DNA of 64,000 nucleotides. Origin: a virus. Below the pieces are notes generated by a model. That model was not told the DNA's origin, made no database searches, and saw only the letters and a list, made by a program, of their open reading frames with translations. Each line of letters begins with the position of its first letter. Position 1 is the stretch's first letter. The DNA is taken from the IMG/VR virus record IMGVR_UViG_3300030099_008323, positions 122,104-186,103 of that record, one strand, 5' to 3'. Shown in pieces: positions 1,835-63,463 of the stretch. The position numbers and the translations under genes are program-made.

Positions 1835-1836
1835 AT

Positions 1837-3705: not shown

Positions 3706-3784
3706 TTATTCCTCTATTGTATACCATGCATCATTATAAGCTCTTTTTTAAAATGCTTAAATTCTTCCGCGTCAAATTTTTTAT

Positions 3785-4723: not shown

Positions 4724-4724
4724 T

Positions 4725-6248: not shown

Positions 6249-6249
6249 C

Positions 6250-7176: not shown

Positions 7177-7177
7177 C

Positions 7178-9045: not shown

Positions 9046-9053
9046 TTTTTCTC

Positions 9054-11940: not shown

Positions 11941-11941
11941 C

Positions 11942-22678: not shown

Positions 22679-23790
22679 GCTGTCTTCCTCTTTTTTTTCT
22701 TTTTTCTAGGAGAATCAGTCGCAACATATGTAGGCTTAGCAGCACCAGATTTTTGCTGTTGATTCTTATCTTTTCTTCTTTTTCTCGCTGCTGAAGCACG
22801 TCTTTCTGCAGGTGTCATACTAGCTCTTTTTGCAGAGGATACACACTTTGGTACACCTTCTCCTTCTTTATCACTAGCACAAGAATCGCCTGTAACAACA
22901 TTTACCCATCCTGGTTTTCCATCTTTTGATTTTGAACCCTTGAACCAGTGATATAGGCTAGATTTTTTCTTTTTGGATTTTTTTTTCTTTTTAGGTTTTT
23001 TCTTTTCTTCAAGTTCAGCTTCTTCAAGACCTTGAATATCTACTTCGAGTATTTCATCCTCTAGTACTTCTTTTTCTTCAGCTTTAACACAATTTCTGTA
23101 CGTCTTACCGTACATTTTTTTAGTTTTTCTTTTGCTATCTGTTTTGTATCCTTTTTGACACCTGCCACCTTTTTCATTTAAAAAAGACTCGATTTTTTCC
23201 ATTACAATATCTTCTTTAGATAAAGACTCGTTTTTCTTTTTCTTGCCGCCCGTGCCCCAGTTTTTAGCGCCTTTTTTGCGACACTTCACAAGAGCGCCAG
23301 ATGCATATGCAGAAGGCCAAACTCTATATCTAGCTTTAACTTTGTAATAACAAGCATCTCTTTTGCCTTTCTTTTTCTTTTTAGCTCTTTTCTTTTTTGT
23401 TCTTTTTTTAGACCTTTTTCTTTTTTCATCAAGCATCTCTTCTTGTGCTTCAAAAAATATTTCAAGGCCTTCAGCAATATCTTCTTTTGTAATGTTTATT
23501 TCTTCATCATCGCCTGCAATAATATCTTTGTCTCTATGGACACCAATATCTTCGCTGCCCTCAATAAATTCATCGATGAAAGCATCTAAATCAAAATCAT
23601 CTGGAAGCTCAACACCTCTCTCATCTAAAAAAGGTTTAAGTTCATCAGGAGTTTTTAACATTTTGCGACCAATAGCGCCGCCTTCTTTGCCGATTAAATC
23701 TCTGGCTGCAGCTTCAACATCTTTTTCTGTTGCTTGTTTCTTCTCTTCTTCATTAACAAATTTTCGAAAATTTTCAAATAGTTTTTTCAT
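22675..23790 (-). CDS. Tagged multi-domain basic protein
   Basis: 371 residues with an N-terminal tag MKKLFENFRKFVNEE, an acidic segment, and three small Cys/Lys-rich units: one around YRVWPSAYASGALVKC, one around GRCQKGYKTDSKRKTKK, and a C-terminal YHWFKGSKSKDGKPGWVNV. Units of these types recur in phages and some giant viruses (I recall DUF5872; not checked). They are separated by acidic linkers containing SFLNE|K-like sites, so the protein may be cut into several DNA-binding peptides. Translation is coupled to the HAD gene by ATGA. Confidence 0.72.
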   Translation of the reverse strand: MKKLFENFRKFVNEEEKKQATEKDVEAAARDLIGKEGGAIGRKMLKTPDELKPFLDERGVELPDDFDLDAFIDEFIEGSEDIGVHRDKDIIAGDDEEINITKEDIAEGLEIFFEAQEEMLDEKRKRSKKRTKKKRAKKKKKGKRDACYYKVKARYRVWPSAYASGALVKCRKKGAKNWGTGGKKKKNESLSKEDIVMEKIESFLNEKGGRCQKGYKTDSKRKTKKMYGKTYRNCVKAEEKEVLEDEILEVDIQGLEEAELEEKKKPKKKKKSKKKKSSLYHWFKGSKSKDGKPGWVNVVTGDSCASDKEGEGVPKCVSSAKRASMTPAERRASAARKRRKDKNQQQKSGAAKPTYVATDSPRKKKKKRKTA

Positions 23791-35569: not shown

Positions 35570-35773
35570 ATGCAAGATATAAACCCCGGCGATATAGTAA
35601 CACTTAAAGGTCTCAGCAAACAAAAAGAAAAACCCCTTGGAATTGTTAAAAGAAAGCTAGATAGAAAAACTTTTGAAATATTTTGGATTAACGAGGGAAT
35701 AGCAACAAGATTTGCTTTAGTTGATATGGCTAAATCTCATAGATTAGAAATTATTAGCCAAGCTGCTCAATAA
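35570..35773 (+). CDS. GDLV-family small beta-barrel protein (outlier copy)
   Basis: 67 residues. PGDIVTLKG near the start, PLGIVKRKL in the middle and SHRLEIIS at the end match the layout of the small-protein array at 53-63 kb, 20 kb away and on the other strand. No obvious ribosome binding site. Its 3' end overlaps the amidase gene by 20 bp tail to tail. Confidence 0.65.
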   Translation: MQDINPGDIVTLKGLSKQKEKPLGIVKRKLDRKTFEIFWINEGIATRFALVDMAKSHRLEIISQAAQ

Positions 35774-36606: not shown

Positions 36607-37158
36607 TCAACCTCTCAATCTTATATATATTTTTTTATTTTCATCGCTTTCAGTACCAAGAGTCATTTGAATTGATTTTAAATATGGCTTAGATAAGCTG
36701 CCTTTAGAATTAAAATCATTTATTTGTTGCATTGAAAAAAAACCATATTCTGTGTGTTCATCGCTAAGCTTTACCTCGCCACCACCAAATGCAGCCTGAA
36801 AAAATACTTTGTTGCCGTGGTTGTAATGAAGCGCTTTTGGTTCAAACACATTAAGTCCTGTTTCTTCGAACACCTCTCTTTCCAAAGCAGACAAAATATT
36901 CTCGTCGCTTTTCATATGTCCACCAGGCAAATCCCAGCCCATATCATTTTTTAATAAAAGTACTTTTCCATTTCTGTGCATAACAACTTTAACTGATTTT
37001 GATAGATCCTCTCCGGTTGCTTGTTGTTTGTCTGCTGGATATATATTTTTAACATATCCTAAATTATTTCCAATTGTTCCAGCTAGGCTCGGGCGATCTC
37101 CACCAAAATATGTGAGTTCATTAATATAGCCCCTCCAACTTTCAAATAATTTTTTCAT
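36607..37158 (-). CDS. Tagged Nudix hydrolase (KLFE-W tag)
   Basis: 183 residues. N-terminal tag MKKLFESWRGYINEL, then a Nudix fold with the box GHMKSDENILSALEREVFEE (followed by TGL), matching Gx5Ex7REUxEExGU. Nudix enzymes hydrolyse NDP-X compounds (ADP-ribose, NADH, ADP-sugars, capped RNA). The shared tag suggests that this enzyme is packaged and delivered with the DNA, where it could act on host nucleotides or defence signals at once after entry. That delivery is inference. Confidence 0.85.
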   Translation of the reverse strand: MKKLFESWRGYINELTYFGGDRPSLAGTIGNNLGYVKNIYPADKQQATGEDLSKSVKVVMHRNGKVLLLKNDMGWDLPGGHMKSDENILSALEREVFEETGLNVFEPKALHYNHGNKVFFQAAFGGGEVKLSDEHTEYGFFSMQQINDFNSKGSLSKPYLKSIQMTLGTESDENKKIYIRLRG

Positions 37159-37161
37159 ATG

Positions 37162-38472
37162 CTATTTTATCTCTTCAGGTGGCCCGGTGAAGGTGTAGGA
37201 TGAATTCTCAAGTTTTCTAATAGCCGGTATTACTTCATCGTATAGCTCTTTTACTCTTTTTCTAGCATTCTTATATCCTATTTTTGCAGATTCATAGTTT
37301 TTTTCCCAGTTTTTCTTCTCATTTTTATCAGTGCTAGGGTCATCGACATCAGGCTTAGCAATATTTTTTTTGTCACTAATGTATTTTTTTACATTTTCAT
37401 CAATGCCATATAATCTTACATGGAAGTGGTGAAAATGATTTTTTTCATGCCTAACTTTTGTCCCAAATATTTTTCTACTCAGCCACCTTTTTGATCTTTT
37501 TCCTGCTTTGATATCCTGCTTAAGCTTTTGTTTAATAGCAGCAATAATTTTTTCATCTATAAATATATACTCAACTATAAATTCTGTGCCTGCGCCCGGA
37601 CCATACAAGCAATGCGCTATGAAATTTATACATGCATCAATATCAATTTTTGATACGTCCCTACCTAGATTATCAAAATTCCAAGACTCTTTAGAGCCTC
37701 TTCTTTTATCTGAAACACTCATTTTTACTTTTCTTGTCGGTACGTATCCCTTTAAAGGCACATCACCTGTTATTTCTTTTCCTTTGAATTCTTGTTCCGA
37801 TAAAGTTGGTACTGACATATCAACGTCTAGACCCCATCTATGACTGCCATGGCCGTAGATCTTTGTACCTAGCTTATATCTACCGATATCTAGTTTGGAT
37901 ATGTCTTCAACAAACCATGGCGCATATTTTGCAACAGATGGGTTTACTTCAAGACTATTTAAAAACCTTATCATAGTTGGCCATCCCCATCTTCTATTGT
38001 TAGCTTCTTTCACTTCAACGACACTATTACCATTAAATTTTTTCAGGCCGGCCTTTGAGAATTCCTTTGGTGTTGGTAATGATGGTGGCGAGGTAAAGCT
38101 TGATAATTTTGCTGCAGCAAATTCTAGATACCTTAAATCGTCCTCCATCAACAGATATTTGTCTTGTACAACTCTTGCTATATCACTAGGATCAAGAAAT
38201 CCACGTATGTAGTACGATAATTCAACTGATTTCTTAACAAACTCCTCTCCTAGGCCTTTATCTTTTGCTTGTGATAAATACCACTTCCTAGCACGAACAT
38301 TACTCATAGCCCGGGCAACTTCCATAACCGCCTCAACATAATGATCTTCTGTGGGTTTATCTGGTGGTAGCTTTCCTAGTTTTGGATGATTTATTCCCTT
38401 AAGAGTTTTTGCTAGTGAAGAGTTATTTTGCTCTCCTATATAGGCGCGCCAATTTTCAAATAGTTTTTGCAT
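37162..38472 (-). CDS. Tagged MepA-like murein endopeptidase (M74/LAS)
   Basis: 436 residues. Tag MQKLFENWRAYIGEQ, helical middle, then an LAS-type zinc peptidase core: GHGSHRWGLDVDM (HxxGxDxD) and NHFHHFHVRLYG. MepA cuts D-Ala-mDAP cross-links. As a tagged protein it could be a virion enzyme that opens the wall during entry rather than a lysis enzyme, although it lies next to the endolysin. C-terminal 75 residues are a charged helix. Confidence 0.8.
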   Translation of the reverse strand: MQKLFENWRAYIGEQNNSSLAKTLKGINHPKLGKLPPDKPTEDHYVEAVMEVARAMSNVRARKWYLSQAKDKGLGEEFVKKSVELSYYIRGFLDPSDIARVVQDKYLLMEDDLRYLEFAAAKLSSFTSPPSLPTPKEFSKAGLKKFNGNSVVEVKEANNRRWGWPTMIRFLNSLEVNPSVAKYAPWFVEDISKLDIGRYKLGTKIYGHGSHRWGLDVDMSVPTLSEQEFKGKEITGDVPLKGYVPTRKVKMSVSDKRRGSKESWNFDNLGRDVSKIDIDACINFIAHCLYGPGAGTEFIVEYIFIDEKIIAAIKQKLKQDIKAGKRSKRWLSRKIFGTKVRHEKNHFHHFHVRLYGIDENVKKYISDKKNIAKPDVDDPSTDKNEKKNWEKNYESAKIGYKNARKRVKELYDEVIPAIRKLENSSYTFTGPPEEIK

Positions 38473-46425: not shown

Positions 46426-46938
46426 CTAAAGATCGTCAGGCTCACCATAATCGTCAGGTAAACCACCTGGATTAACGGGATCGATCTGTCTTAGTTGCAT
46501 AGCCTTAGCTAAACCGGTTTCTGCCAAGCTGGAAGGCTGTCTGTCTTCAGGAACCAGCTTCTCTATGGCTACGAGCTGCTCACTTAAATCTCTAGATTTA
46601 GCATATTTATTGTAGAGTTTGCCTAGCTCAGTTAGAGCTTCTTCCCATCTTTCGTTTTTCGAGTACTGAGATAAAATATTCTTATTTCTAGTCCAGTAAT
46701 TTTTAACAGTGAACATCATATCGCGATAAGCTTGCTGAGGGTTGTCGACAACATCCTTTTCCTCATATTTTGTACCAAGCTGATCTCTTACAAAATGCTC
46801 TCTTACTTCTAAAAGCTTTCTAACCAGCTGCCCGCCGCTCTTCATCTCAGGATTCATGCCTAGATCTTCTTGCTCAGCAAAAAAATTCTGAAGCTCTTCT
46901 TTAATAATCTGCTGTAATCTTTGTTTTGTAATTTTCAT
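46426..46938 (-). CDS. Tagged protein (KITK tag), function unknown
   Basis: 170 residues. Tag MKITKQRLQQIIKEELQN with FFAE|Q at residue 22. The body is helical (QAYRDMMFTVKNYWTRNK) with a Pro/Gly-rich end. Lies upstream of the 1242-residue gene, separated by 60 bp containing a CGCG-CTG-CGCG hairpin that might partly terminate transcription. Confidence 0.65.
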   Translation of the reverse strand: MKITKQRLQQIIKEELQNFFAEQEDLGMNPEMKSGGQLVRKLLEVREHFVRDQLGTKYEEKDVVDNPQQAYRDMMFTVKNYWTRNKNILSQYSKNERWEEALTELGKLYNKYAKSRDLSEQLVAIEKLVPEDRQPSSLAETGLAKAMQLRQIDPVNPGGLPDDYGEPDDL

Positions 46939-47964: not shown

Positions 47965-48954
47965 TTATTCCTCAAGCTTTGTTAAGTCGCGACTAAGATC
48001 TTGGAACGCTGTTTTTTTAAGTACTTTGCTCATTTGTTGTTCAAGCTTGCCTAATTCGATCAAACGAAAATCTATATCGCGAATTTTCTTTTCAATATCA
48101 TCTTGATCTGGATCTAAGCTGCCAGGTATTAATTGAGCGATAAGATCTTTTTTTTCAGCATTTAATTTGGCCTTTTCACTTTTAACACGCCGCTCGCGGG
48201 AAGATAGCGATCGCATCTTTGTCAAATTAGGATCTTCGCGGTTTGATGGCATCACAGGGTCGACCGGATTAAGAACGGGCGTCTTAGACTGTTTTGGAGG
48301 CATTTCAACTGGTGGCGTTGTACGATACTGCAGTTTCATTTGATCTAGCTTATTTTGCTCTAGCAGCGCTGCAAACGTATTTGATTGAAGCGCTTCTTTT
48401 AAAATTGACTTAAGCTGTGCTTTTGTGATTTTAACGCTTTTATGTCCTTCATTTATATCTTCGTAATCATCGTCGAACGCATCGATCTCTGCAGGAGATA
48501 ATCCAGTCGCCAGGCCACTCGGCCGAGTGCGCATCATTTTGAGGTGAAACTCAACGTCGCGACCTATCTCAGGCCTTTGTTCTATGACAGCATCCAGCAT
48601 CGCTTGCGCGTTTTGATCACGACCGCTCCTTGCCGCATGAAATAACCTTTCCAGTGCTCTATTATCAAATATCTTAGGCGGACCTTCTAAAGCTTTAGTT
48701 GCTAGCGCTTGATATGGCGTTATATCGCCCACGCTGTGTATTTGCTTTTTTGGTGAATCGATTTTTGATCGATCAGTCACAGCGCTGGTTTGCGCAACTC
48801 CCCTTCTTGGCTCGCCATACCGATTGGCTCTACGCGGCCCATCTAGATCTTCAATATCCAGCTTGGGCTCACCATATTCTGCTGGGTTTCTTTTGTAAGC
48901 CTCTAGAATGATCTCTTTCACTAGTTTTTTAAGTTTATTATTATCAATTTTCAT
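47965..48954 (-). CDS. Protein with N-terminal and internal KITK tags
   Basis: 329 residues from the ATG of MKIDNNKLKKLVKEIILEA. After about 165 residues of polar, Pro-rich sequence a second complete tag appears in frame (VKITKAQLKSILKEAL), where the expected start Met is Val encoded by GTT, so it cannot act as a start. A charged helical domain follows (RERRVKSEKAKLNAEKKDL). Looks like two tagged genes fused in frame. Confidence 0.68.
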   Translation of the reverse strand: MKIDNNKLKKLVKEIILEAYKRNPAEYGEPKLDIEDLDGPRRANRYGEPRRGVAQTSAVTDRSKIDSPKKQIHSVGDITPYQALATKALEGPPKIFDNRALERLFHAARSGRDQNAQAMLDAVIEQRPEIGRDVEFHLKMMRTRPSGLATGLSPAEIDAFDDDYEDINEGHKSVKITKAQLKSILKEALQSNTFAALLEQNKLDQMKLQYRTTPPVEMPPKQSKTPVLNPVDPVMPSNREDPNLTKMRSLSSRERRVKSEKAKLNAEKKDLIAQLIPGSLDPDQDDIEKKIRDIDFRLIELGKLEQQMSKVLKKTAFQDLSRDLTKLEE

Positions 48955-49103
48955 ATTGCTGTTCCTTAAACGTACCAATTGCTGGTTTAAGCTTGACTAT
49001 TGTAAATAGTATCGTTATAATGATTAAATCTCAAAATTAACTTGGCGGTATTTTTTTGCTTTAGACTTGGCTTTAAGTGCCTATATTGTATGTAAGTAAA
49101 TTA

Positions 49104-52932: not shown

Positions 52933-53127
52933 TTAAGTTAACTCAATATTGAGTGTGGAGACTGCCGTCGTCTTGCTTGGGAAAGCAACAACGCAGCCCT
53001 TAACGATATCATTCTCAATGACAACGCCTAGTTCGCGCAACCACGGCATTTCAACAGCTAGCGCATCAAGCTGTCGACCACGTTGTTTGAAGCGTACTAA
53101 GTCACCGATATTAAACTGCTTTTTCAT
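52933..53127 (-). CDS. GDLV-family small protein
   Basis: 64 residues: FNIGDLVRFKQRG near the start, ELGVVIENDIVKGCVVAF in the middle, STLNIEL at the end. Same strand order as the array members but with a longer first loop and no SESR ending. AGAGG ribosome site. Confidence 0.68.
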   Translation of the reverse strand: MKKQFNIGDLVRFKQRGRQLDALAVEMPWLRELGVVIENDIVKGCVVAFPSKTTAVSTLNIELT

Positions 53128-53600: not shown

Positions 53601-53628
53601 ATAATAAGCACCGTTTAGGTGGAGTAAA
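53601..53628 (-). promoter_or_regulatory. Early-type promoter (P-53.6)
   Basis: TTTACT, 16 bp, TATTAT with GGTGCT before the -10. The -35 lies inside the last codons of the preceding gene, so coding and promoter sequence overlap. Confidence 0.78.
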
Positions 53629-53827
53629 GGCCTGGAGTAACTTTTTTCAAATAACTCTTTGTAAATCTTCGTACCTTGCCATCGAAGGTCTTGATATCAT
53701 AAAGAAAATAGTTATCCCGTCCAGGCTCCGCTGTTATTTGTAGGCGCTGCTCGACAATCAAACCAAGAGAGCCTTTTGGCACTCCGATAGAACCATGCTT
53801 AAACTCAACTAAATCACCGATATTCAC
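53615..53827 (-). CDS. GDLV-family small protein
   Basis: 70 residues from a GTG (MNIGDLVEFKHG). LGLIVEQRL and KVRRFTKSYLKKVTP follow the family strand order, but the LEVIS end is replaced. Its first 14 nt overlap the end of the previous family member. Confidence 0.7.
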   Translation of the reverse strand: MNIGDLVEFKHGSIGVPKGSLGLIVEQRLQITAEPGRDNYFLYDIKTFDGKVRRFTKSYLKKVTPGLYST

Positions 53828-53996
53828 TGATAACCTCTATGTCACATCCAGCAGCATGCACGTCACGTGCATGGTCCAGCATTTTCACACGCCACTCGTC
53901 ACCTTTCCAATCGGGACGGTGGTAACTCTTAACTAGCACGCCTAGTTTTGTGCCATAGTGTCTTGTTTTTACCTTAACTAAATCACCGACTTTCAC
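53814..53996 (-). CDS. GDLV-family small protein
   Basis: 60 residues from the GTG in the 14-nt overlap with the previous member. KVGDLVKVK, LGVLVKSYH and CDIEVISEYR. A longer upstream frame exists but lies inside the preceding gene. Confidence 0.72.
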   Translation of the reverse strand: MKVGDLVKVKTRHYGTKLGVLVKSYHRPDWKGDEWRVKMLDHARDVHAAGCDIEVISEYR

Positions 53997-54156
53997 TGAT
54001 AATCTCCAAGTTACTTTTGGGCAAGTCATAGCTGCCGTAGTGAAACATTACCCGTATTCGATTGGCGAGAGGCGCGGGAGCGAAGGGCGCTTCGTCGGCA
54101 CGGGTCACAACCCCAATATCACCTGAAAGTGAGCGAACTAAATCACCGACTTGCAT
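53983..54156 (-). CDS. GDLV-family small protein
   Basis: 57 residues from an ATG with GGAGAG upstream. QVGDLVRSLSGDIGVVTR, IRVMFHYG and SNLEIISESR. The ATG overlaps the stop of the basic 48-residue gene (TAATG). First of a three-member mini-array. Confidence 0.75.
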   Translation of the reverse strand: MQVGDLVRSLSGDIGVVTRADEAPFAPAPLANRIRVMFHYGSYDLPKSNLEIISESR

Positions 54157-54302
54157 TAATCTCTCCATTGAAGATGCTTAGCAATTTGACGTTTAGGCTT
54201 ACGACGACGACCAGTGCGCTCATCACGTACACGAGTGTGATGCTTGCCTGCCTTGCCCGAGTGTAAAACTCTTGGGTCTATCGTTGTTCGTTTAGCCTTC
54301 AT
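54156..54302 (-). CDS. 48-residue very basic protein
   Basis: Found by reading the gap. MKAKRTTIDPRVLHSG ... GRRRKPKRQIAKHLQ: about one third Arg/Lys/His. The ATG lies only about 2 nt from the predicted transcription start of promoter P-54.3, so a leaderless message is likely. A nucleic-acid-binding or host-shutoff peptide would fit. Coupled to the GDLV genes downstream. Confidence 0.58.
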   Translation of the reverse strand: MKAKRTTIDPRVLHSGKAGKHHTRVRDERTGRRRKPKRQIAKHLQWRD

Positions 54303-54346: not shown

Positions 54347-55621
54347 TTATCTTTTTTCATCGATGGCGATGATGCGCTCATTTGTTTTAAAGTAAGGGCG
54401 CTCAGCATGCTCTTTAGTAGTCATCCACATGCGCTGACACTTGCTAGGCTTAGGCTTGGGCGCGCACAAGTCAGTGAGCACAATGTGACCGTCAAACTCG
54501 CGAGTGTTAACATACTCAGTAGGAGCGTTAAAGCACGTGCCGCCATACATGACACGCTCGCGCTTGCGTTGCTCGCCCTTGCGCCACACGTAAACTTTAT
54601 CCTCAGCAACACGAGTATCAAAAGGGATAACCGTAAACGTGGCAAGGCTAGCCAGTTTATTAAGCTCACCGTAAAAAGCTGCCAACATACTGTCAGAAAC
54701 TGAGCCAGATTGGTCAATGCTAATAGCAATGTTGGCAGTTCTGTTGACCTTGCGGCCTGGATGCACGTAGGCATAGCGACGATTCAAACGCTTTGGAGTG
54801 CTACGCTTGTTAGAGCGCTGTGACGTCTTGATGAAGTAACGCAACATTTTACGCCAATCAACTTTGGATTGGATACGCTCCATGATTTCCCTGCGACAAG
54901 ACGAAGAAACAGTGCCCCAGTTGCGCGTTGAAGCCTCTTGCGCTGCATCCTTCACAGCCTCTTTCAATCGCTCTTTGGCAATGTCCATGGCTGCTTGCTC
55001 TTCTGGTCCTGCTTGGCCTTGTCCCCAGTCTTCATGCGAATCAAACTGACCAGCATTGTCAGGGTCAAACGGCTGGCTAGAAGATTCACCGCCAGACCCG
55101 TCATTAGAGCCGCCGCTAGTGCCATCATTGGAATCATTTTCTTGTTCCTCCATTTTCTCAAGTAGCCGAGTGTAGTACCATTCAGCGGTCATATTGCCAG
55201 GCATATCTTCAAACATTTTGCCGCCTGGAATACAGCAGTTTTCAGGCAGATTGTCAGCGCCGATGTGGTAGTTGATTGCCAAGTCAGCAGCAATATTCCA
55301 GATTTTGAACTTTTGCGCTTGCTCGGGTGTAGGCTTCTGAGTCTGCATAACACCGGCCAGCTCGTCAGGTAGACGACCAGTGACGTGCTCAAATACAAGG
55401 TGATAAAACTCATGTATCAGCACGCCAGAGCGCTGAGAGTCAGTTAGACCCTCGAAAAACTCAGGGCTGTAGACCATTTCAAAATGGCCGTCAGGGGTCA
55501 CACGTACGCCAGCAGTCGGGATATTGCCAGGCTTTTTGTCAATACGACGTGAGAGCGCAGCAAAGAAAGGCTCGCTTTGAAGCAGCCGGTAAACGTGGTC
55601 ATTTAGATTGAAGTCAGACAT
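54347..55621 (-). CDS. DUF2201-type metallopeptidase/VWA protein
   Basis: 424 residues from the ATG with GGAGGA upstream. N-terminal HExxH-like IHEFYHLVFEHVTG (residues about 70-85), a Ser/Gly/Asn-rich linker, then a C-terminal VWA-like domain with IAISIDQSGSVSDS (MIDAS) and HIVLTDL. This is the partner protein that, in bacteria, is encoded beside MoxR AAA+ ATPases, as here. Role of phage versions is unknown; complex remodelling or host takeover is suggested. Confidence 0.85.
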   Translation of the reverse strand: MSDFNLNDHVYRLLQSEPFFAALSRRIDKKPGNIPTAGVRVTPDGHFEMVYSPEFFEGLTDSQRSGVLIHEFYHLVFEHVTGRLPDELAGVMQTQKPTPEQAQKFKIWNIAADLAINYHIGADNLPENCCIPGGKMFEDMPGNMTAEWYYTRLLEKMEEQENDSNDGTSGGSNDGSGGESSSQPFDPDNAGQFDSHEDWGQGQAGPEEQAAMDIAKERLKEAVKDAAQEASTRNWGTVSSSCRREIMERIQSKVDWRKMLRYFIKTSQRSNKRSTPKRLNRRYAYVHPGRKVNRTANIAISIDQSGSVSDSMLAAFYGELNKLASLATFTVIPFDTRVAEDKVYVWRKGEQRKRERVMYGGTCFNAPTEYVNTREFDGHIVLTDLCAPKPKPSKCQRMWMTTKEHAERPYFKTNERIIAIDEKR

Positions 55622-55829
55622 TGCGTCCTCCATCGTGGTACACAATAACTATAAGAACGATAAACCTTGGGTAAAGAAAAAAAGCTAGGAGGGTTGTTTT
55701 CTCGCAGAGCAACCTTGCTATCCTGTTAGATTTATTCAACTTCTGAGTTAGGCGTCGAACAGGCAAACACGCATGTAATACATAATGTGTGGGGTACACA
55801 ACTCCTAGCCGCCCCATAACCTCATAATA
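55622..55829. other. Intergenic gap with promoter and possible terminator
   Basis: 208 bp between the VWA gene and the MoxR gene. On the minus strand it holds an imperfect GC hairpin (GGTTG...CAACC within a longer partial stem) followed by TTTTTTT, a plausible terminator for the MoxR unit. The next promoter's -35 follows immediately. The 67-residue ORF that spans it runs through the promoter and was rejected. Confidence 0.45.
55648..55675 (-). promoter_or_regulatory. Early-type promoter (P-55.7)
   Basis: TTTACC, 16 bp, TATAGT with CGTTCT before the -10. Predicted start about 20 nt before the ATG of the DUF2201/VWA gene, giving that gene its own promoter. Confidence 0.75.
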
Positions 55830-56891
55830 TTATTTATTTTTATCACCAGTGAGAATCTTGACAAGCTTGCCCGATACGGTCTCGCCGTTGTCTGCTTTTG
55901 TTTTGTGGAAGGCTGTGACGTTAGCAGTCTCACCCTTGCCGAGTGCCTGCCATAGCTTCATGACAGCCTCAGAAGGCAACGCAACAAAGTAGTTAGCAAG
56001 GTTAACACACTGTTGCTCTGTCAACTCAGCTTTAAAAGCTTCGCTGCTATCCATCTTTTCAATGAGAGCACAGTGGTCATTGATATTGAAATCATTAGTC
56101 TTTTCGACCTTACCCTCATCAAGAATCATTTCAACAGTAACTTGGCGCTCATAGTTTTTGACAAAATCGTTGAATGCAACGCCAGCCTCAAAGCCAACAA
56201 AGCCACAAGCAAGGTGAAACATGGCAGGCTTGTGAGCCTGGACCATATCAGCGGTCACTAGGCAATCGTTCAAGCGCTTCCACGAGCGACGTGAGGGATA
56301 TACTTTATTGGGCTCGAAGTCATCGCTATGCTCCAAGTGAGAGCGATTCTGGTTGATGAAATCCCAAACAATATCAACCGTGTTGGTCTTAGCCCAAGCT
56401 AGCCAATCCTCAACAGAGGGCTCGACGTCAAAGACGGTCCAGCGGTCAAGCTCAGCCGGGTCCATTTCACCGACCTGATACTGAGAGCCATGCTCGCCAC
56501 CGTTGACAGCAGCGACCACAACGGTATCCTCGTGCAAGTAGTTGCCAAAAATCTTGCGAGAGTCGGTCAACTCGAAAATACCTTGACGCACTTCGGGGAT
56601 AGCACGGTCGACCTCATCGAGAAAGAGCAGCACCGCACGTGAGCAGGCATCTGCTAGCCAGTCAGGCGCACAGAAAGAAGTGATATCACCGTCTGTCTTA
56701 GGAAGACCCACGAGGTCACCCTCGGTCATCTGAGACGCACGACGTTCTACAACGGGCAAGCCCATATCACGGCCAATCTGATAGACAAGCTCCGACTTGC
56801 CAATGCCATGGCGACCACGAAGCATAAGAGGCTTCTTGACTGCAAGGACGTGGGGTGCGACTGAGACGAAAGTTTGAAAATCTAGAGCCAT
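55830..56891 (-). CDS. MoxR-type AAA+ ATPase
   Basis: 353 residues. Walker A GRHGIGKSE (residues 26-34), Walker B LLFLDEVDRA, sensor 1 VVAAVNGG and an Arg-finger candidate AELDRW. AAA_5/MoxR layout. MoxR ATPases remodel or insert cofactors into complexes together with VWA proteins; the VWA partner is the next gene. The pair is separated by a promoter, so each can be expressed alone. Own promoter at 56933-56960. Confidence 0.88.
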   Translation of the reverse strand: MALDFQTFVSVAPHVLAVKKPLMLRGRHGIGKSELVYQIGRDMGLPVVERRASQMTEGDLVGLPKTDGDITSFCAPDWLADACSRAVLLFLDEVDRAIPEVRQGIFELTDSRKIFGNYLHEDTVVVAAVNGGEHGSQYQVGEMDPAELDRWTVFDVEPSVEDWLAWAKTNTVDIVWDFINQNRSHLEHSDDFEPNKVYPSRRSWKRLNDCLVTADMVQAHKPAMFHLACGFVGFEAGVAFNDFVKNYERQVTVEMILDEGKVEKTNDFNINDHCALIEKMDSSEAFKAELTEQQCVNLANYFVALPSEAVMKLWQALGKGETANVTAFHKTKADNGETVSGKLVKILTGDKNK

Positions 56892-57117: not shown

Positions 57118-57786
57118 TTAAGCCTTCGCTTTCTTGAGATATCTTTCTTCAGTTTCAATAGTTTCAATACCGCCGACTGGCAGCACTTTAATCTTGCGGG
57201 AGCCTTTTGTAGCAGAGCGCACGTCTTCCTCACACTCTACAATCATAACTAGCTTTCCTCGCAGTTTACTAGATGGGAAAGGCACATTTTGTGAGTTGCG
57301 AACCATCGCCATGGTGCCTACAGTAAACTTAGGAACCTGAGACGCATTGTCAAGTGCGCGCTGCACATATTTGTTAAGAACCATCTTCCGGTACAGCTTT
57401 TCTGTTGGTACATAATCATCCTCAGCTAGGATGCGGCGAGCGGCATCACCAAAATAAGGAGGATTAGCCAAGTAATACTCAGCCGCAAACTTCAAGTCTT
57501 CACGCATAGCGGGCGTAAAACTTTCAATCCAGTTCTTTCGGGCTGCAATGTTTTTGGGGTCAGTCTTTTTTTCGATGCGCTGAAGTGTGTCATGCTGCTT
57601 GACAGTTAGGCGACCCCACTTGTTCGCGCTCTCACGCAGAGAGCCAAGAAAGCTACGCTCCCAGTCAGTCATTACCGTAACGCCGCGTGCTGCTACTTTT
57701 TCAATGCGCTCAAGTAGTTCTTTTTTAGACATGCTTGAAGACTCGTGTTTGCTTTGCTGATATCGCTGACGTGCCCAGTAACCCAT
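57118..57786 (-). CDS. Protein with C-terminal GDLV-like barrel
   Basis: 222 residues from the ATG with GGAGAG upstream. Residues 1-145 are helical and basic (MTDWERSFLGSLRESANKWG; PAMREDLKFAAEYYLANP). The last 70 residues (KFTVGTMAMVRNSQ, RGKLVMIVECEED, KIKVLPVGGIETI) follow the same strand plan as the GDLV proteins. It may show what those small barrels do when tethered to a larger protein. Function unknown. Confidence 0.6.
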   Translation of the reverse strand: MGYWARQRYQQSKHESSSMSKKELLERIEKVAARGVTVMTDWERSFLGSLRESANKWGRLTVKQHDTLQRIEKKTDPKNIAARKNWIESFTPAMREDLKFAAEYYLANPPYFGDAARRILAEDDYVPTEKLYRKMVLNKYVQRALDNASQVPKFTVGTMAMVRNSQNVPFPSSKLRGKLVMIVECEEDVRSATKGSRKIKVLPVGGIETIETEERYLKKAKA

Positions 57787-57787
57787 G

Positions 57788-57964
57788 TTACTCTCCATTG
57801 TGAGGGTTGTCGTCTAGTTCGTATACATTAATTGTAGGAACCCCATCGCAAAGAGTAAACTCCCCATCATCATAAAAAACCACATTGTCTTCATCGCTTC
57901 GATTAACATCTTGTTTTTGTTCATTTTTTTTCCAGTGTTGGATGTGAAAATATTCTTTGCTCAA
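57788..57964 (-). CDS. 58-residue acidic protein (TTG start), overlapping a membrane ORF
   Basis: TTG start with GAGG upstream and a TTGA overlap with the preceding stop; encodes KEYFHIQHWKKNEQ ... EFTLCDGVPTINVYELDDNP. In another frame, 57814-57924 encodes a 36-residue Met-rich transmembrane peptide (MWFFMMMGSLLFAMGFLQLM). The promoter P-57.8 also lies here. I favour the acidic frame for its ribosome site, but either or both may be used. Confidence 0.45.
   Translation of the reverse strand: MSKEYFHIQHWKKNEQKQDVNRSDEDNVVFYDDGEFTLCDGVPTINVYELDDNPHNGE
57831..57859 (-). promoter_or_regulatory. Early-type promoter (P-57.8)
   Basis: TTTACT, 17 bp, TACAAT with GGGTTCC before the -10. It serves the 222-residue gene and sits inside two overlapping reading frames. 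Confidence 0.6.
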
Positions 57965-58116
57965 CGTCGGCCCTCAATCCAGTTTGTTTTAGATTCGGAG
58001 CGGTCAATAGGTCCACAATCTTTTGGGGTTCTTAGCGCTGCGCGGACCTCCACCAACATTGACTCTAGCTGCTGCTCAAAGCGCTCTAATAGAATCCTGT
58101 ACTCTTTATCATTCAT
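57961..58116 (-). CDS. 51-residue hypothetical protein
   Basis: MNDKEYRILLERFEQQLESM then LVEVRAALRTPKD and a polar end. Helical, coiled-coil-like. The ATG overlaps the previous stop by 4 nt (ATGA). No family recognised. Confidence 0.55.
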   Translation of the reverse strand: MNDKEYRILLERFEQQLESMLVEVRAALRTPKDCGPIDRSESKTNWIEGRR

Positions 58117-58298
58117 ATCGCATACTCCTCGTCAGCCAATGGCGTGACAGTAATAATATTCTCCCAAGTCATTGAGCCCTCAGGCCACAAAACTTGATAA
58201 TCAATCGCAGTGAGTGAGTTTGTGTGTGTCTCGCTTACACGAGTGACGACACCCATCGAGCCAGTGTCATTGCATTTAACTAAATCGCCTGTAATCAT
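58113..58298 (-). CDS. GDLV-family small protein
   Basis: 61 residues: ITGDLVKCNDTGSMGVVTRV, then YQVLWPEGSMTWENI and a divergent C-terminus (VTPLADEEYAI). Linked by ATGA overlaps to genes on both sides. Confidence 0.72.
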   Translation of the reverse strand: MITGDLVKCNDTGSMGVVTRVSETHTNSLTAIDYQVLWPEGSMTWENIITVTPLADEEYAI

Positions 58299-59014: not shown

Positions 59015-59215
59015 TTACTCCGACTTGCTGATAACCTTGACCCAACCTTGCTCGATTGCGTCTAGTGACATTCTCTGTGACTTGGTAAACGTGTTCCACT
59101 GCACCCAGACATACTGTCCTGCTGGGCCTTCGATAGTATTATAGGAACAGACTTCGCTTGTGACAACACCAAAATCGCCATCGCCCATATCTTTAATCAA
59201 ATCACCGGGTTTCAT
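59015..59215 (-). CDS. GDLV-family small protein
   Basis: 66 residues: KPGDLIKDMGDGDFGVVTS, YVWVQWNTF and WVKVISKSE. Its first 14 nt overlap the end of the DUF2061 gene. Last member of the main array in transcription order. Confidence 0.78.
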   Translation of the reverse strand: MKPGDLIKDMGDGDFGVVTSEVCSYNTIEGPAGQYVWVQWNTFTKSQRMSLDAIEQGWVKVISKSE

Positions 59216-59402
59216 TCTTTATCCTTAAGGCCCATAGCTTTTCAAATACATAATGGCAACATATCAAAACAGCGTGCAGAAAAACAGTGATGCCTGTAGC
59301 TGATTTAACATCGCCGGTAGCTAAAAAAAGCACTAACACGGTTACTAAAATAGATACGCACCTCCAGGCAATCACCTTCTTTAAGATGTCACTAGGCTTC
59401 AC
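59202..59402 (-). CDS. DUF2061-like membrane protein, copy A
   Basis: 66 residues from a GTG (KPSDILKKVIAWRCVSILV). Two hydrophobic segments and the DUF2061 pattern: SWR-like AWR, LATGDV, HYVFEKLW. Sits inside the GDLV array and uses the array's junctions: its front reads like KVGD and it ends NETR. Near-duplicate of the copy at 60469-60669. Confidence 0.75.
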   Translation of the reverse strand: MKPSDILKKVIAWRCVSILVTVLVLFLATGDVKSATGITVFLHAVLICCHYVFEKLWALRIKNETR

Positions 59403-59577
59403 TGATAACCTCCAACTCTGGACCATCATACCAAAACAAATCTACCCCTCGTGACCAAGAGACCTGGTAGTAGGGCGCAGCATATTCATCAGACTTTATA
59501 GCTTTGATTATAACGCCAGTGCCCAGCGAGTCTCTCACCAAATAGTTGGTGCGTCTTACTAAATCACCTACTTTCAT
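59392..59577 (-). CDS. GDLV-family small protein
   Basis: 61 residues from the second Met of MKMKVGDLV. TGVIIKAIK, YQVSWSRG and PELEVISEA. Its stop comes one codon earlier than usual (TAG), giving an 11-nt overlap with DUF2061 copy A. Confidence 0.78.
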   Translation of the reverse strand: MKVGDLVRRTNYLVRDSLGTGVIIKAIKSDEYAAPYYQVSWSRGVDLFWYDGPELEVISEA

Positions 59578-59848
59578 TTTCAAGCTCGTGTGAGGGACAA
59601 ACCAACCATACTTTGTTTTTAGGGCTCCAACCCTCTTTAAAAAACCTGCCCATTGCTAAAGCTTCTATAACTGGCTTCGTAGGGTTGCTGTCTGTTACAA
59701 TAAAACTATAGGAACTAATATATTTTGGTAAAGGTTTTTTTCTTTTTGCTATCGATAAAAGATTCTCTTTGGTTTTTACCTTTGATTTCAAAGCTATCAG
59801 CGCAGTGTATTTTTTTCTTGGATTGCACTCCCAGTCTTCAACTTTCAC
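59564..59848 (-). CDS. Unrelated protein inserted in the array, with array junctions
   Basis: 94 residues from a GTG (MKVEDWECNPRKKYTAL). The body (ALKSKVKTKENLLSIAKRKK, then SYSFIVTDSNPTKPVI) does not follow the GDLV strand plan. Yet it starts MKVED and ends ELENESR, using the same overlap sequences. Promoter P-59.7 lies inside it. Either a strongly diverged member or foreign cargo between the junctions. Confidence 0.6.
   Translation of the reverse strand: MKVEDWECNPRKKYTALIALKSKVKTKENLLSIAKRKKPLPKYISSYSFIVTDSNPTKPVIEALAMGRFFKEGWSPKNKVWLVCPSHELENESR
59705..59732 (-). promoter_or_regulatory. Early-type promoter inside the array (P-59.7)
   Basis: TTTACC, 16 bp, TATAGT with AGTTCC before the -10. 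It would boost the last members of the array independently of upstream transcription. Confidence 0.62.
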
Positions 59849-60005
59849 TGATAACCTCTAGCTGCGATTCGGGCCAATGTATTAACTCTTCTGAGCAAGA
59901 TATCGTGTGCCAGCCAGGACTAAACTCGGAGCACGCGATGATCACTCCGACGACACGATCTCCGTGGAATGAACCGATTAGTTCAACTAAATCACCGACT
60001 TTCAC
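59838..60005 (-). CDS. GDLV-family small protein
   Basis: 55 residues, missing from lists with a 60-residue cutoff. GTG start in the 14-nt overlap. KVGDLVELIGSFHGDRVVGV, then WHTISCSEELIHW and LEVISES; the final Arg codon is lost, shortening the next overlap to 11 nt. Confidence 0.75.
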   Translation of the reverse strand: MKVGDLVELIGSFHGDRVVGVIIACSEFSPGWHTISCSEELIHWPESQLEVISES

Positions 60006-60168
60006 TGATTACCTCTAAATCGTAATACGACATTTCTACTACACCATCGGGCCAGAGCACGCTAGCGTAAGCAGGTTCACCCCCGCCTTGATGTCCGTAA
60101 ACTTTGGCTATAACACCGATGCCCGCAGCGCTCCAACCTAACTGCGTAACCAAATCACCTACCTTCAC
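59992..60168 (-). CDS. GDLV-family small protein
   Basis: 58 residues, read by hand. GTG start; KVGDLVTQLG, GIGVIAKVYG, YASVLWPDG and YDLEVISESR. A full match to the family plan, with canonical 14-nt overlaps at both ends. Confidence 0.8.
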   Translation of the reverse strand: MKVGDLVTQLGWSAAGIGVIAKVYGHQGGGEPAYASVLWPDGVVEMSYYDLEVISESR

Positions 60169-60307
60169 TAATCACCTTCAACTCTGAATAGTTTTTTGCA
60201 TCCTCAACCGTGTTATCGTCAAGCCACTCAACTAATGTTATCCACTTGTTGGCCTCAACTATCAAGCCAAGATACTCGTTAAACTCAACTAAATCACCGA
60301 CTTTCAC
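60155..60307 (-). CDS. GDLV-family small protein (shortest copy)
   Basis: 50 residues from GTG. KVGDLVEFNEYLGLIVEANK, TLVEWLDD and ELKVISEGR. The loops are minimal, so this copy shows the core of the fold. A longer upstream frame lies inside the previous gene and has no ribosome site. Confidence 0.8.
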   Translation of the reverse strand: MKVGDLVEFNEYLGLIVEANKWITLVEWLDDNTVEDAKNYSELKVISEGR

Positions 60308-60482
60308 TAAAAATCTCCAACCAACTAGCTCGCATCCAAGCGGGCTCATGCCCGTCAAACCAATATACCCTATAGGGACAACCATTAGGATTTTTTAGTT
60401 GGGGCTCACTTATATATATTATAATCCCCAGGTTTGTAGGGTAAAGGCCGTGAACATTTTTTACCATGTCACCGACTTTCAT
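60294..60482 (-). CDS. GDLV-family small protein
   Basis: 62 residues, ATG start. KVGDMVKNVHG, NLGIIIYIS, YRVYWFDGHEPAW and LEIFSESR. Promoter P-60.4 is embedded in its coding sequence. Confidence 0.8.
   Translation of the reverse strand: MKVGDMVKNVHGLYPTNLGIIIYISEPQLKNPNGCPYRVYWFDGHEPAWMRASWLEIFSESR
60418..60445 (-). promoter_or_regulatory. Early-type promoter inside the array (P-60.4)
   Basis: TTTACC, 16 bp, TATAAT (perfect -10). Located within a GDLV gene; the GTKCY box is absent (GGGGAT). It could start transcripts for the downstream half of the array. Confidence 0.6.
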
Positions 60483-60669
60483 CTTCCATCCTCATAGACC
60501 ACATCTTTTCAAAGCCGTAGTGGCAAGATATCAAAACAGCATGCAAAAAAATAGTGATGTTCGTAGTTGACTCAACATCGCCAGTCGCTATGAAAAGCAC
60601 CAACATGGTCACTAAAATTGAGACACACCTCCAAGCAATCACTTTTTTTAAAGTATCACCGACTTTCAC
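60469..60669 (-). CDS. DUF2061-like membrane protein, copy B
   Basis: 66 residues from a GTG (KVGDTLKKVIAWRCVSILV). Two hydrophobic segments; differs from copy A at about 15 positions, mostly conservative. Starts with an exact KVGD junction and ends DESR. Two duplicated membrane proteins flanking array members imply block duplication of part of the array. Confidence 0.75.
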   Translation of the reverse strand: MKVGDTLKKVIAWRCVSILVTMLVLFIATGDVESTTNITIFLHAVLISCHYGFEKMWSMRMEDESR

Positions 60670-60847
60670 TGATAACCTCCAGTTCATGTGCAGCGTGAAA
60701 AGAAAAATCTGTATCACTCCAGATAATCTTATGGGAAGTAAAGCCCTCCTCTGGATAGTCAGTCATAGATATAATAACGCCCATCCCGTAGTCAACGCCT
60801 TTTATTTTATATTGCTCTTTTAAAACAACCAAGTCACCGACTCTCAT
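60656..60847 (-). CDS. GDLV-family small protein
   Basis: 63 residues from the ATG of MRVGDLVVLKEQ. GMGVIISMTDYPEEGFTSHK, IIWSDTDF and HELEVISESR. The ATG lies in the 14-nt overlap. Confidence 0.8.
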   Translation of the reverse strand: MRVGDLVVLKEQYKIKGVDYGMGVIISMTDYPEEGFTSHKIIWSDTDFSFHAAHELEVISESR

Positions 60848-61031
60848 CGTAAACTTCCAAAAGGCATGTTTGGTAGTTACCAACCGGAGTGTATGGATTA
60901 CACCACACAATGAAGGCAACATCGCGCCCCTGTTGTGAATGACGTGGTTCTTCTAGAGTCTCTAGCCTTACTACGACACCCAAAGGTTTGTCATAATGCG
61001 CGCGAAACTTTACCAGATCGCCAACCTTCAT
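60834..61031 (-). CDS. GDLV-family small protein
   Basis: 65 residues. KVGDLVKFRAHYDKPLGVVV, AFIVWCNPY and CLLEVYDESR. Coupled to the previous member by a 4-nt ATGA overlap instead of 14 nt. Confidence 0.8.
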   Translation of the reverse strand: MKVGDLVKFRAHYDKPLGVVVRLETLEEPRHSQQGRDVAFIVWCNPYTPVGNYQTCLLEVYDESR

Positions 61032-61231
61032 CCAGAATGCCCTACTATCTCTAAATCAACCTCTGTCATAAAACCTTCGTCCACTTCAAAAAAAGGAGAA
61101 ATCCACTGTATCCTCCACCTTTTAAACTTTGTCGGGTGTTTTTCCAAAACTATTCCAATAGGGTGGTAGCTCGTGCCAACGGTATCTGGACCCCATGGCG
61201 TCTTGCACCTAACTAAGTCTCCGGGCTTCAT
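61028..61231 (-). CDS. GDLV-family small protein
   Basis: 67 residues. KPGDLVRCKTPWG, PIGIVLEKH, WRIQWISPFFEV and VDLEIVGHSG. First member of the uninterrupted array in transcription order; the C-terminal SESR has drifted to GHSG. Confidence 0.78.
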   Translation of the reverse strand: MKPGDLVRCKTPWGPDTVGTSYHPIGIVLEKHPTKFKRWRIQWISPFFEVDEGFMTEVDLEIVGHSG

Positions 61232-61437
61232 AAGCCCCTCACGTCACACTGAACGACCTTATAATCTTTTATAAAATAAACTTTCTGACCCGCTTCAGGC
61301 AGACATGCTGACAAGTCTTTGGACACTCGCGAGTGAAATGTCTTAGACCCCCTCTCATACGAGATTAAAATCTCACTTTCATACACATGTTCAACCATTC
61401 CGAGCATCATCATTGTTGCTAAAATCTTGTTCTTCAT
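61228..61437 (-). CDS. Small hypothetical protein
   Basis: 69 residues. Hydrophobic Met-rich start (ILATMMMLGMVEHVY), then a beta-rich body with two Cys (ACLPEAGQKVYFIKDYKVVQ ends CDVRGL). Might have a weak signal sequence. Not a GDLV protein. ATGA overlaps on both sides. Confidence 0.55.
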   Translation of the reverse strand: MKNKILATMMMLGMVEHVYESEILISYERGSKTFHSRVSKDLSACLPEAGQKVYFIKDYKVVQCDVRGL

Positions 61438-61706
61438 GCTCTGCTCACAATCTCATATAGAGATTCGTAGTTGTTAAAACTTCGTGCATCCCAGCCATCC
61501 GTGCACAACCCAGCGTCACGCCACTGCACCTCAACGAAAAGATCCATACCGGCTGTCTTATGGTTATCGCCGTATGGTCCAATGGTGCTGGTTGAAACAA
61601 CAATGCCCATGTCGTCATCATCAGTGCAGCGGATTATGTCGCCTACTTTTGGATATTCACTTAAAGGGATTGCATGCGGTGGCCTCTCTTTTTCATACGG
61701 CGGCAT
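61434..61706 (-). CDS. GDLV-family protein with N-terminal extension
   Basis: 90 residues from the ATG that overlaps the end of the GIY-YIG gene by 14 nt (longer frame rejected as it runs through that gene). A 22-residue Pro-rich lead-in, then KVGDIIRCTDDDDMGIVVST, VEVQWRDAG and SLYEIVS. Confidence 0.7.
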   Translation of the reverse strand: MPPYEKERPPHAIPLSEYPKVGDIIRCTDDDDMGIVVSTSTIGPYGDNHKTAGMDLFVEVQWRDAGLCTDGWDARSFNNYESLYEIVSRA

Positions 61707-61947
61707 TGATAAACTCCTCTTTTTGTTTTCTGGTAAGTCTTTTAAAGCTATACTCTGCCTGTAAAGCATCTCTACGTGTTCTATAAACTCTTGTGTGTAT
61801 ATAGCTGGATGGCCTTCTTGAGCGAGTGTACTTAGCACCTTTAGCTGTTTGGTTATGCTCATGTAGCCTACGCTCCAAGTCTGTAGTTACACCACAATAG
61901 TAAGTACCATCAGCGCACAGTAAAACATAAAGGTACCAGTTTTTCAA
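61693..61947 (-). CDS. Small GIY-YIG endonuclease
   Basis: 84 residues. The domain is complete and stands alone: WYLYVLLCADGTYYCGVTTD (GIY-YIG), a catalytic Arg in LERRLHEHN and a late Glu in LQAEYSFKRL. Matches the YhbQ/UPF0213 type of single-domain nucleases. Could be a structure-specific nuclease acting on host or competitor DNA. Confidence 0.88.
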   Translation of the reverse strand: MKNWYLYVLLCADGTYYCGVTTDLERRLHEHNQTAKGAKYTRSRRPSSYIHTRVYRTRRDALQAEYSFKRLTRKQKEEFINAAV

Positions 61948-62248: not shown

Positions 62249-62482
62249 CTACGTAGATAAAACTCTTTTTCTTCTATACTTTTTGCTGCCCAGGTGGAGT
62301 GCGCACGTACCATCATCAATGGCCTTGTAGACAAAATCTACATCTACGTCGTGAAACTCACCAGGGGTGCTAAGGTTGCTGTGGCATATATAATAATGGA
62401 TTTTTCTTTTTGTTACCTTTGTGACAAATCCATATCTACCTTGAGTCTCCAGCAAATCGCCTACTTTAATCTTAAAGTTCAT
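62249..62482 (-). CDS. GDLV-family small protein
   Basis: 77 residues. FKIKVGDLLETQGRYGFVTK, then a Lys/His-rich middle and a DVDVDFVY strand; the C-terminus ends basic (KKYRRKRVL). Divergent member. ATG within the end of the RHH-like gene (11-nt overlap). Confidence 0.65.
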   Translation of the reverse strand: MNFKIKVGDLLETQGRYGFVTKVTKRKIHYYICHSNLSTPGEFHDVDVDFVYKAIDDGTCALHLGSKKYRRKRVLST

Positions 62483-62738: not shown

Positions 62739-62766
62739 ATTATAGGCACGGCACACAACGAGTAAA
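62739..62766 (-). promoter_or_regulatory. Early-type promoter (P-62.7)
   Basis: TTTACT, 16 bp, TATAAT with CCGTGCC before the -10: the best overall copy. Predicted start about 42 nt before the RHH-like gene. Confidence 0.82.
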
Positions 62767-63170: not shown

Positions 63171-63260
63171 CTAGTAGCAAGCCTTCCAAAGTAAAACAAT
63201 AGAAACCAAAAGCAACACGTCAATCGTAAAAAACATTAATGCTGGCTTGAAATCTTTCAT
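63171..63260 (-). CDS. 29-residue membrane microprotein
   Basis: MKDFKPALMFFTIDVLLLVS followed by IVLLWKACY: one transmembrane helix. ATGA overlap with the end of the GDLV gene upstream. Below normal length cutoffs but consistently placed. Confidence 0.5.
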   Translation of the reverse strand: MKDFKPALMFFTIDVLLLVSIVLLWKACY

Positions 63261-63463
63261 TTGCTCTCGCTAACTACCTCTAAATCCTGACTCATAAAAC
63301 TTCTAACCTTGTTTCCCCGTGCCGTTGGAAACATAACGCTGAACACATCGCACTTCTTTTGTAGTATGACGCCGATTGTTTCAAAAGGTATGCCAATGAC
63401 GTCACTTATGCCATTGGTAAAGTGAGAGTGAATGTTTAATTTTACTAAATCGCCGACTTTCAT
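63257..63463 (-). CDS. GDLV-family small protein
   Basis: 68 residues. KVGDLVKLNIHS, ETIGVILQKKCDVFSVMF and QDLEVVSESK. Canonical start and end although it lies 2 kb from the main array. Confidence 0.78.
   Translation of the reverse strand: MKVGDLVKLNIHSHFTNGISDVIGIPFETIGVILQKKCDVFSVMFPTARGNKVRSFMSQDLEVVSESK

Follow-up and report, generated by a model that had tools for sequence, protein, structure and literature searches.

The window analysed here, the right-hand 64 kb (64,000 nucleotides) of the 186,103-bp virus record IMGVR_UViG_3300030099_008323, carries on its minus strand an array of small genes in which each gene runs into the next through a conserved, dual-coding sequence of about 33 nucleotides (nt), referred to below as the joint. 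The array is probably a translationally coupled, freely shuffling set of cassettes of large marine phages, carrying diverse small barrel proteins. In the mechanism proposed, each cassette would encode one SH3/Tudor/KOW-like barrel or, occasionally, an unrelated small protein; the Shine-Dalgarno sequence and spacer of the following gene would encode the last beta strand (LEVIS) of the upstream protein, and (A/G)TGAAAGTCGGTGA at the start of that following gene would give both its MKVGD and the stop codon of the gene before it, so that ribosomes ending one gene would be placed to start the next. Since TGA lies in both other frames of this sequence, an incoming upstream gene would be closed after 4 or 14 nt in either. 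Homologous recombination between any two joints, probably performed by a RecA/UvsX-like phage protein, would swap, insert or remove whole cassettes, and because all joints share the sequence in the same phase the genes would stay intact and coupled after the exchange. The outcome would be a different, non-redundant hand of barrels in each phage. The original prediction, which described a tandem array of small GDLV proteins connected by a dual-coding overlap, is supported overall, with the corrections given below.

The array itself is real. From 61231 to 59015 on the minus strand, 12 small open reading frames (ORFs) form one gapless chain with 11 joints, as had been predicted for 59.0-61.2 kb. 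The same overlap had been expected throughout, which holds for eight of the 11 joints (14 nt, at 60847, 60669, 60482, 60307, 60168, 60005, 59577 and 59215) and fails for two of 11 nt (59848 and 59402) and one of 4 nt (61031). A GDLV identity for all linked genes was likewise only partly borne out: the 12 comprise nine GDLV barrels and three other proteins, namely two DUF2061-type membrane proteins and a 94-amino-acid (aa) protein without family, and these three all bear array-type ends. The start/stop sequence GTGAAAGTCGGTGA occurs 12 times in the window with up to two mismatches against 0.30 expected, and no shuffle got to 12. A second chain, of three genes, occupies 54168-53615 on the minus strand. 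Outlying members had been listed as well; a profile search recovered those at 52.9, 53.6-54.2, 58.1, 61.4, 62.2 and 63.3 kb, and the one at 35.6 kb, recognised by eye, gave no match to the hidden Markov model (HMM) of the family. The features, in window positions, are the following.

61028-61231, minus strand: array gene 1, GDLV barrel, 67 aa, with a 4-nt ATGA overlap with gene 2
60834-61031, minus strand: array gene 2, GDLV barrel, 65 aa
60656-60847, minus strand: array gene 3, GDLV barrel, 63 aa
60648-60681, minus strand: example joint, GGAGGTTATCA (Shine-Dalgarno and spacer), GTGAAAGTCGGTGA (next start and previous stop), then TACTTTA; about 33 nt
60469-60669, minus strand: array gene 4, DUF2061 membrane protein (Pfam PF09834, E=9.5e-8), termini MKVGD...DESR
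60294-60482, minus strand: array gene 5, GDLV barrel, 62 aa
60155-60307, minus strand: array gene 6, GDLV barrel, 50 aa
59992-60168, minus strand: array gene 7, GDLV barrel, 58 aa; AlphaFold model of five strands, predicted local distance difference test (pLDDT) 86.1
59838-60005, minus strand: array gene 8, GDLV barrel, 55 aa, with an 11-nt joint to gene 9
59564-59848, minus strand: array gene 9, 94-aa protein without family, termini MKVED...ENESR
59392-59577, minus strand: array gene 10, GDLV barrel, 61 aa; exchange site relative to locus L030
59202-59402, minus strand: array gene 11, second DUF2061-like membrane protein, MKPSD...KNETR, absent here in L030
59015-59215, minus strand: array gene 12, GDLV barrel, 66 aa; AlphaFold model of five strands, pLDDT 87.4
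53983-54168, minus strand: second chain, gene 1, GDLV barrel
53814-53996, minus strand: second chain, gene 2, GDLV barrel, 14-nt joint
53615-53827, minus strand: second chain, gene 3, GDLV barrel, 14-nt joint
52933-53127, minus strand: lone GDLV barrel, from the profile search
58113-58298, minus strand: lone GDLV barrel, from the profile search
61434-61862, minus strand: 142-aa protein with a GDLV barrel at its C-terminus (E=3.2e-4, residues 80-128 of the open frame)
62249-62482, minus strand: lone GDLV barrel, from the profile search
63257-63463, minus strand: lone GDLV barrel, from the profile search
35570-35773, plus strand: lone family-like ORF recognised by eye, MQDINPGDIV...LEIISQAAQ, with a natural end and no SESR tail
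61693-61947, minus strand: GIY-YIG nuclease upstream of the array (Pfam PF01541, E=3.6e-16), without array termini here
62739-62766, minus strand: candidate operon promoter, TTTACT-16-TATAAT, a consensus match only

The protein at 57.1 kb (57118-57798) matched neither Pfam nor the family HMM.

The properties of the joint were measured in a sample of 75 loci, made up of the window and of loci picked for the ATPase gene beside them, with the overlap ignored in the choice; codon counts from loci selected by pattern were set aside, since the pattern itself fixes GAG. Among the 927 family members of this sample the upstream overlap is 14 nt in 495 and 4 nt in 118, these being the two common lengths in the family, and the non-family gene pairs of the same loci show 127 overlaps of 4 nt, 47 of 1 nt and 19 of 14 nt, the last length being rare among them. 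The consensus of the 495 joints, GATTTGGAGGTTATCA followed by GTGAAAGTCGGTGATTTGGTAAAA, holds 40 bits from -12 to +20 and reads LEVI-SESR-stop in the upstream frame and M(GTG)-KVGDLV in the downstream frame. The last base of its GGAGG stands six nucleotides ahead of the start codon, and a Shine-Dalgarno sequence (GGAGG, GAGG or GGAG) is found 6-7 nt ahead of the start in 330 of the 495; as in other coupled overlapping genes, the Shine-Dalgarno sequence and start of the next gene thus lie inside the upstream one. Direct reading of (A/G)TGAAAGTNGGTGA gives TGA in both other frames, at +1 (4-nt overlap) and at +11 (14-nt overlap), which accounts for the two common lengths and for the 43 homologous gene pairs in which the overlap is 4 nt in one phage and 14 nt in the other. 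The arrangement is widespread in IMG/VR.

That the nucleotide sequence of the joint is itself under selection follows from synonymous choices in the upstream gene. Before a 14-nt joint, the Glu of the terminal E-V/I-x motif is encoded by GAG in 388 cases and by GAA in 11; where that joint is missing, the counts are 88 for GAG and 45 for GAA (odds ratio 18, nominal p=2e-20, p-values here being nominal because the sequences and phages are related and not independent); elsewhere in the same genes the GAG:GAA ratio is 1111:1388. In all of IMG/VR the exact GAG joint is present in at least 118 stretches and the GAA version, with the same peptide and joint, in 3. As the amino acids are unchanged between the two, the constraint acts on the ribosome-binding site, and this synonymous signature of an embedded Shine-Dalgarno sequence lends indirect support to the prediction that the overlap would force coupled translation. 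The C-terminal SESR ending, read at first as a trait of the family, proved to be something else: of 510 members followed by a 14-nt joint, 333 carry an E.R tail, against seven of the 417 members lacking that joint, and among 73 homologous pairs differing in overlap the tail is found in the overlapping copy alone in 48 and in the other alone in one. The tail therefore tracks the downstream joint, and SESR comes about as a side effect of how the next gene starts. Both gene ends show less synonymous change (pS 0.34 and 0.26) than the core (0.56), and the ratio of nonsynonymous to synonymous change (dN/dS) in the core has a median of 0.14 over 105 pairs; the barrels are therefore real, maintained proteins under purifying selection.

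The proposal that the joints form a repeated homology patch found strong support when they were considered as exchange boundaries. Cassettes flanked on each side by a 14-nt joint were collected, 560 distinct ones in all, and in 123 of 143 homologous cassette pairs, with cores 70-99.9% identical, both neighbours are unrelated. The mean identity of such pairs stays at background up to -15, rises across the joint, is high over the core and is back to background about 21-24 nt past the next start, so that the homologous stretch ends at about -12 to +21 of the start codon. Alignment ends (at least 92% identity, inside family genes) fall in the joint in 128 of 261 cases, compared with 39.5 (sd 5.9) expected, and in the joint or within 10 nt of it in 187. 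Two cassette lineages, each present in 11 loci, have a different downstream neighbour in every one of them and 10-11 different neighbours upstream. The window itself offers an example in its comparison with L030, a locus 99.6% identical to it over 2863 bp (62420-59558), which diverges from the joint at 59577; past this joint L030 continues with a different cassette (KVKGRPEYGAG) and a 72% homologue of gene 10, and from there, lacking the membrane gene, passes to a 92% homologue of gene 12.

Genes that do not belong to the family gain array termini when they lie inside arrays, as sequence comparison shows for the GIY-YIG nuclease and the DUF2061 protein. A GIY-YIG homologue inside the array of locus L136 starts with MKVGDWWFYVLL and ends in INESR, and several other GIY-YIG copies have the E.R tail alone, where a joint follows. 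In seven other loci the DUF2061 protein stands free and has no array ends, while the copies of the window and of L137 have array-type ends. Since only four of the 560 cassettes fall outside the family, such capture is rare. From position 8063 of locus L021 onward, a joint was seen to run straight into a larger protein starting MKVGEYDANGNGNSVLF; this protein looks like a gp32-type single-strand DNA-binding protein, and the case suggests that core genes can also follow a joint.

The cassette barrels, of about 50-75 aa, are well supported by modelling as SH3/Tudor/KOW-like five-strand barrels, the fold that had been guessed from the strand pattern. AlphaFold gave five strands for each of two divergent members (59992-60168 and 59015-59215, pLDDT 86-87), at residues 6-9, 17-26, 32-38, 44-47 and 51-55 in the first and 6-9, 15-27, 30-41, 50-55 and 59-63 in the second; the members compared thus do not have unrelated folds, and both models agree with the five-strand, partly open SH3-like small barrel. 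In the first model, strand five (residues 51-55) is LEVIS, the strand encoded by the Shine-Dalgarno region. Foldseek returned PHF1 and MTF2 Tudor, eS4-type/KOW-containing and CAP-Gly barrels (prob 1.00, TM 0.6-0.75), and the family profile matches a NusG chain (2xhc, E=2.7e-4) and also Spt5 KOW and the DNMT3B PWWP domain. The predicted barrel fold is thereby supported and an assignment to KOW or Tudor proper is not: two of 101 members match the KOW family PF00467 (best E=0.005), no scanned member is significant in Pfam against a KOW-, Tudor-, PWWP- or CAP-Gly-type family, and Pfam and PHROGs searches of individual members gave weak, scattered families, mostly barrels. With the known KOW, Tudor, PWWP and CAP-Gly barrels, such as NusG KOW and PHF1 Tudor, the array proteins have in common the five-strand SH3-like fold and two conserved features, a GD close to the N-terminus and a G in the second strand; KOW and Tudor barrels, however, are domains of transcription and chromatin proteins, whereas the array barrels are free-standing and about 60 aa long. 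In the present sample 1494 members form 956 clusters at 50% identity. Viral proteins of BFVD (A0A516MBH7, A0A516MB52 and similar; 37-38% identity, same fold) probably represent this family in other virus genomes; tblastn with three members and a DNA-level search against named phages found no match.

Several observations weigh against the interpretation of the array as a coupled and shuffling cassette system. The small non-family genes (60-100 aa) of these loci are also often reshuffled (56 of 136 pairs with both neighbours different), the data are metagenome assemblies in which a single junction difference such as that of L030 could be an assembly join, the Foldseek E-values against the PDB do not go below 0.008, a weakness common with short barrels, and coupling, expression and function of the array are argued by computation. 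The first of these bears on the alternative that the joint is kept only as an efficient coupled ribosome-binding site, cassettes being moved by ordinary illegitimate recombination, with selection sparing only those products whose breakpoint falls at the joint, so that the common sequence would not itself direct the exchange. Shine-Dalgarno and stop/start constraints alone account for much of the joint conservation, and the small non-family genes reshuffle without such joints; yet in the same pipeline both neighbours differ more often in family genes (57 of 75), and codons 5-7 are conserved beyond the needs of start, stop and Shine-Dalgarno sequence, D5 being GAT in 77% against 57% in gene bodies and L6 being TTA/TTG in 84% against 37%. 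This conservation leans towards a joint that guides recombination over one that only makes the product viable, although AT-rich initiation regions could also be the reason for it. On balance the ribosome-binding-site explanation is considered unlikely, while still deserving attention. The concern that the shuffling is an artefact of assemblers joining reads at a repeated joint draws on the facts that all data are metagenome contigs and that the joint, at about 33 nt, is itself repeated; it is extremely improbable, and a poor explanation for the whole set, because most shuffled copies have cores differing by 1-30% and tails whose changes match their context. Moreover, non-family proteins take on array termini, and the arrays sit in long contigs adjoining the same ATPase gene.

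Growth by tandem duplication, with the ends kept alike by gene conversion, would suit the common fold and ends of nearly all members, as well as the two DUF2061 paralogues of the window, which are 75% alike over 255 bp. It is already largely refuted and very improbable: within-array duplicates are almost absent, the 560 cassettes including one within-locus pair at 60% identity or more and four at 40% or more, close homologues are met in other phages, beside different neighbours, and the cluster count given above is high. An integron-like site-specific system, in which an integrase would act on the joint as an att site, would explain unit cassettes, a single boundary sequence and captured unrelated genes, but no tyrosine or serine recombinase (PF00589, PF00239) was matched in the 186-kb record, which may be incomplete, under a search positive in control genomes. 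Nor was an attC-like structure seen at the joints: five joint regions folded as RNA no better than shuffles (z -0.6 to 1.1), a weak hairpin ATCA...TGAT across the start codon in several folds is not significant, and an Rfam search of the joints gave no match. Such a system is thus highly unlikely. With no sign of either duplication or a dedicated recombinase, and with a RecA-family protein present in the genome, homologous recombination on the short shared sequence is the likely route of exchange, in line with the cassette interpretation preferred here.

Comparable systems have been described in part. The promoter early stem-loops (PeSLs) of T4-type phages (Arbiol 2010; Comeau 2014) are, as described in PMC4503421, composite promoter-terminator motifs, repeated expression signals at gene boundaries that mediate the shuffling of small gene modules between related phages. 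The joints share with them the coincidence of a repeated boundary motif with module exchange, and differ from them in being a dual-coding translation signal inside genes, with no terminator and no consistent promoter; a promoter plus stem-loop terminator at module boundaries was not found, the joints lying within coding sequence. In Cluster K mycobacteriophages, the SAS and ESAS elements include a 13-bp GGGATAGGAGCCC upstream of starts (PMC3203893). Like the joints, SAS place a repeated Shine-Dalgarno core before the starts of different gene families in the non-structural genome half, and termination codons of upstream genes may fall inside them; unlike the joints, they are neither arranged in an array nor tied to one shared protein family, and no exchange is shown for them (PMC3203893). 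The 13-bp GGGATAGGAGCCC has no match in the window with up to two mismatches. The array may also be set beside other modular systems. Integrons keep arrays of single-gene cassettes that come from a common pool and change places at one boundary sequence, and the present array resembles them in these respects; it differs in that no integrase or attC-like fold was found and in that the boundary codes for protein in both neighbouring genes. Repeated expression signals that serve for shuffling, and Shine-Dalgarno repeats before starts, are therefore known already, and what appears to be new is the dual-coding joint: the literature searched contained no account of a dual-coding joint uniting Shine-Dalgarno sequence, start, stop and exchange point, nor of this family, in agreement with the original prediction that no such arrangement had been described, PeSLs and SAS being nearest in concept.

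With regard to transcription, the promoter-like matches within the array all lie away from the joints, and the only same-strand terminator-like match within the array is at 59463-59444, inside gene 10; the candidate promoter at 62766-62739 would put the array in one operon. A promoter-like repeat, TTTACY/TTGACT-16-TATTAT(TTA), precedes several small operons of the minus strand between 51282 and 62786 (for example at 52896-52869, 53358-53331, 53628-53601, 58549-58522 and 62766-62739), and sigma-70-like sites number 37 in 52-64 kb against 17.4 expected. Beside the arrays, at 54347-56891, a MoxR-type AAA ATPase stands next to a DUF2201 metallopeptidase/VWA protein, a neighbour that PHROGs labels an HNH endonuclease, without Pfam support. 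This ATPase recurs in at least 80 virus loci; its nearest relative among isolates has 33% identity, and matches were found in four contigs of metagenome-assembled genomes from three different groups. A relative of the ATPase locus, L206 (CP070664.1, 585894-606955), lies within a 2.8-Mb metagenome-assembled genome labelled candidate division WOR-3 and is possibly a prophage or a binning artefact. Elsewhere in the window, the ORF list shows unrelated proteins with an MKKLFENFRxFINEE-like N-terminal tag (19962-20456, 22675-23790, 36607-37158 and 37162-38472) and others with an MKITKxKLKQIIKEEL-like one (20456-20929, 22079-22678, 46426-46938 and 47965-48978), possibly tags for targeting or capsid sorting. 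At 920-13192 an island of sugar-nucleotide and metabolic enzymes was recognised by eye, with look-alikes of glycosyltransferases, an epimerase, a thiamine-diphosphate enzyme, a PanB-like protein and a radical SAM protein.

Small, diverse and non-redundant proteins that are under purifying selection and constantly reassorted are what one would expect if they bound host or defence proteins that themselves vary, and a role of the barrels in host takeover or counter-defence is put forward tentatively, as a somewhat doubtful suggestion. In its widest form, the interpretation would be that of a cassette system without a dedicated recombinase, in which one dual-coding sequence serves as Shine-Dalgarno sequence, start, two-frame stop and homology patch, and through which a marine clade exchanges and captures small genes, also unrelated ones, as intact and coupled frames, keeping a rapidly changing set of barrels against variable hosts; the chances for and against this general form are judged to be about equal. 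Phage genomes are mosaic, and the breaks between their genes are usually credited to chance and selection; here the gene boundary would act as a standard part, keeping expression intact and at the same time marking the point of exchange, which turns the way modular exchange avoids breaking genes into a directly testable question. The joint also explains the identical ends on unrelated proteins, a trap for homology searches, and the array indicates that small phage barrels form a pool that is very large, uncharacterised and maintained under purifying selection.

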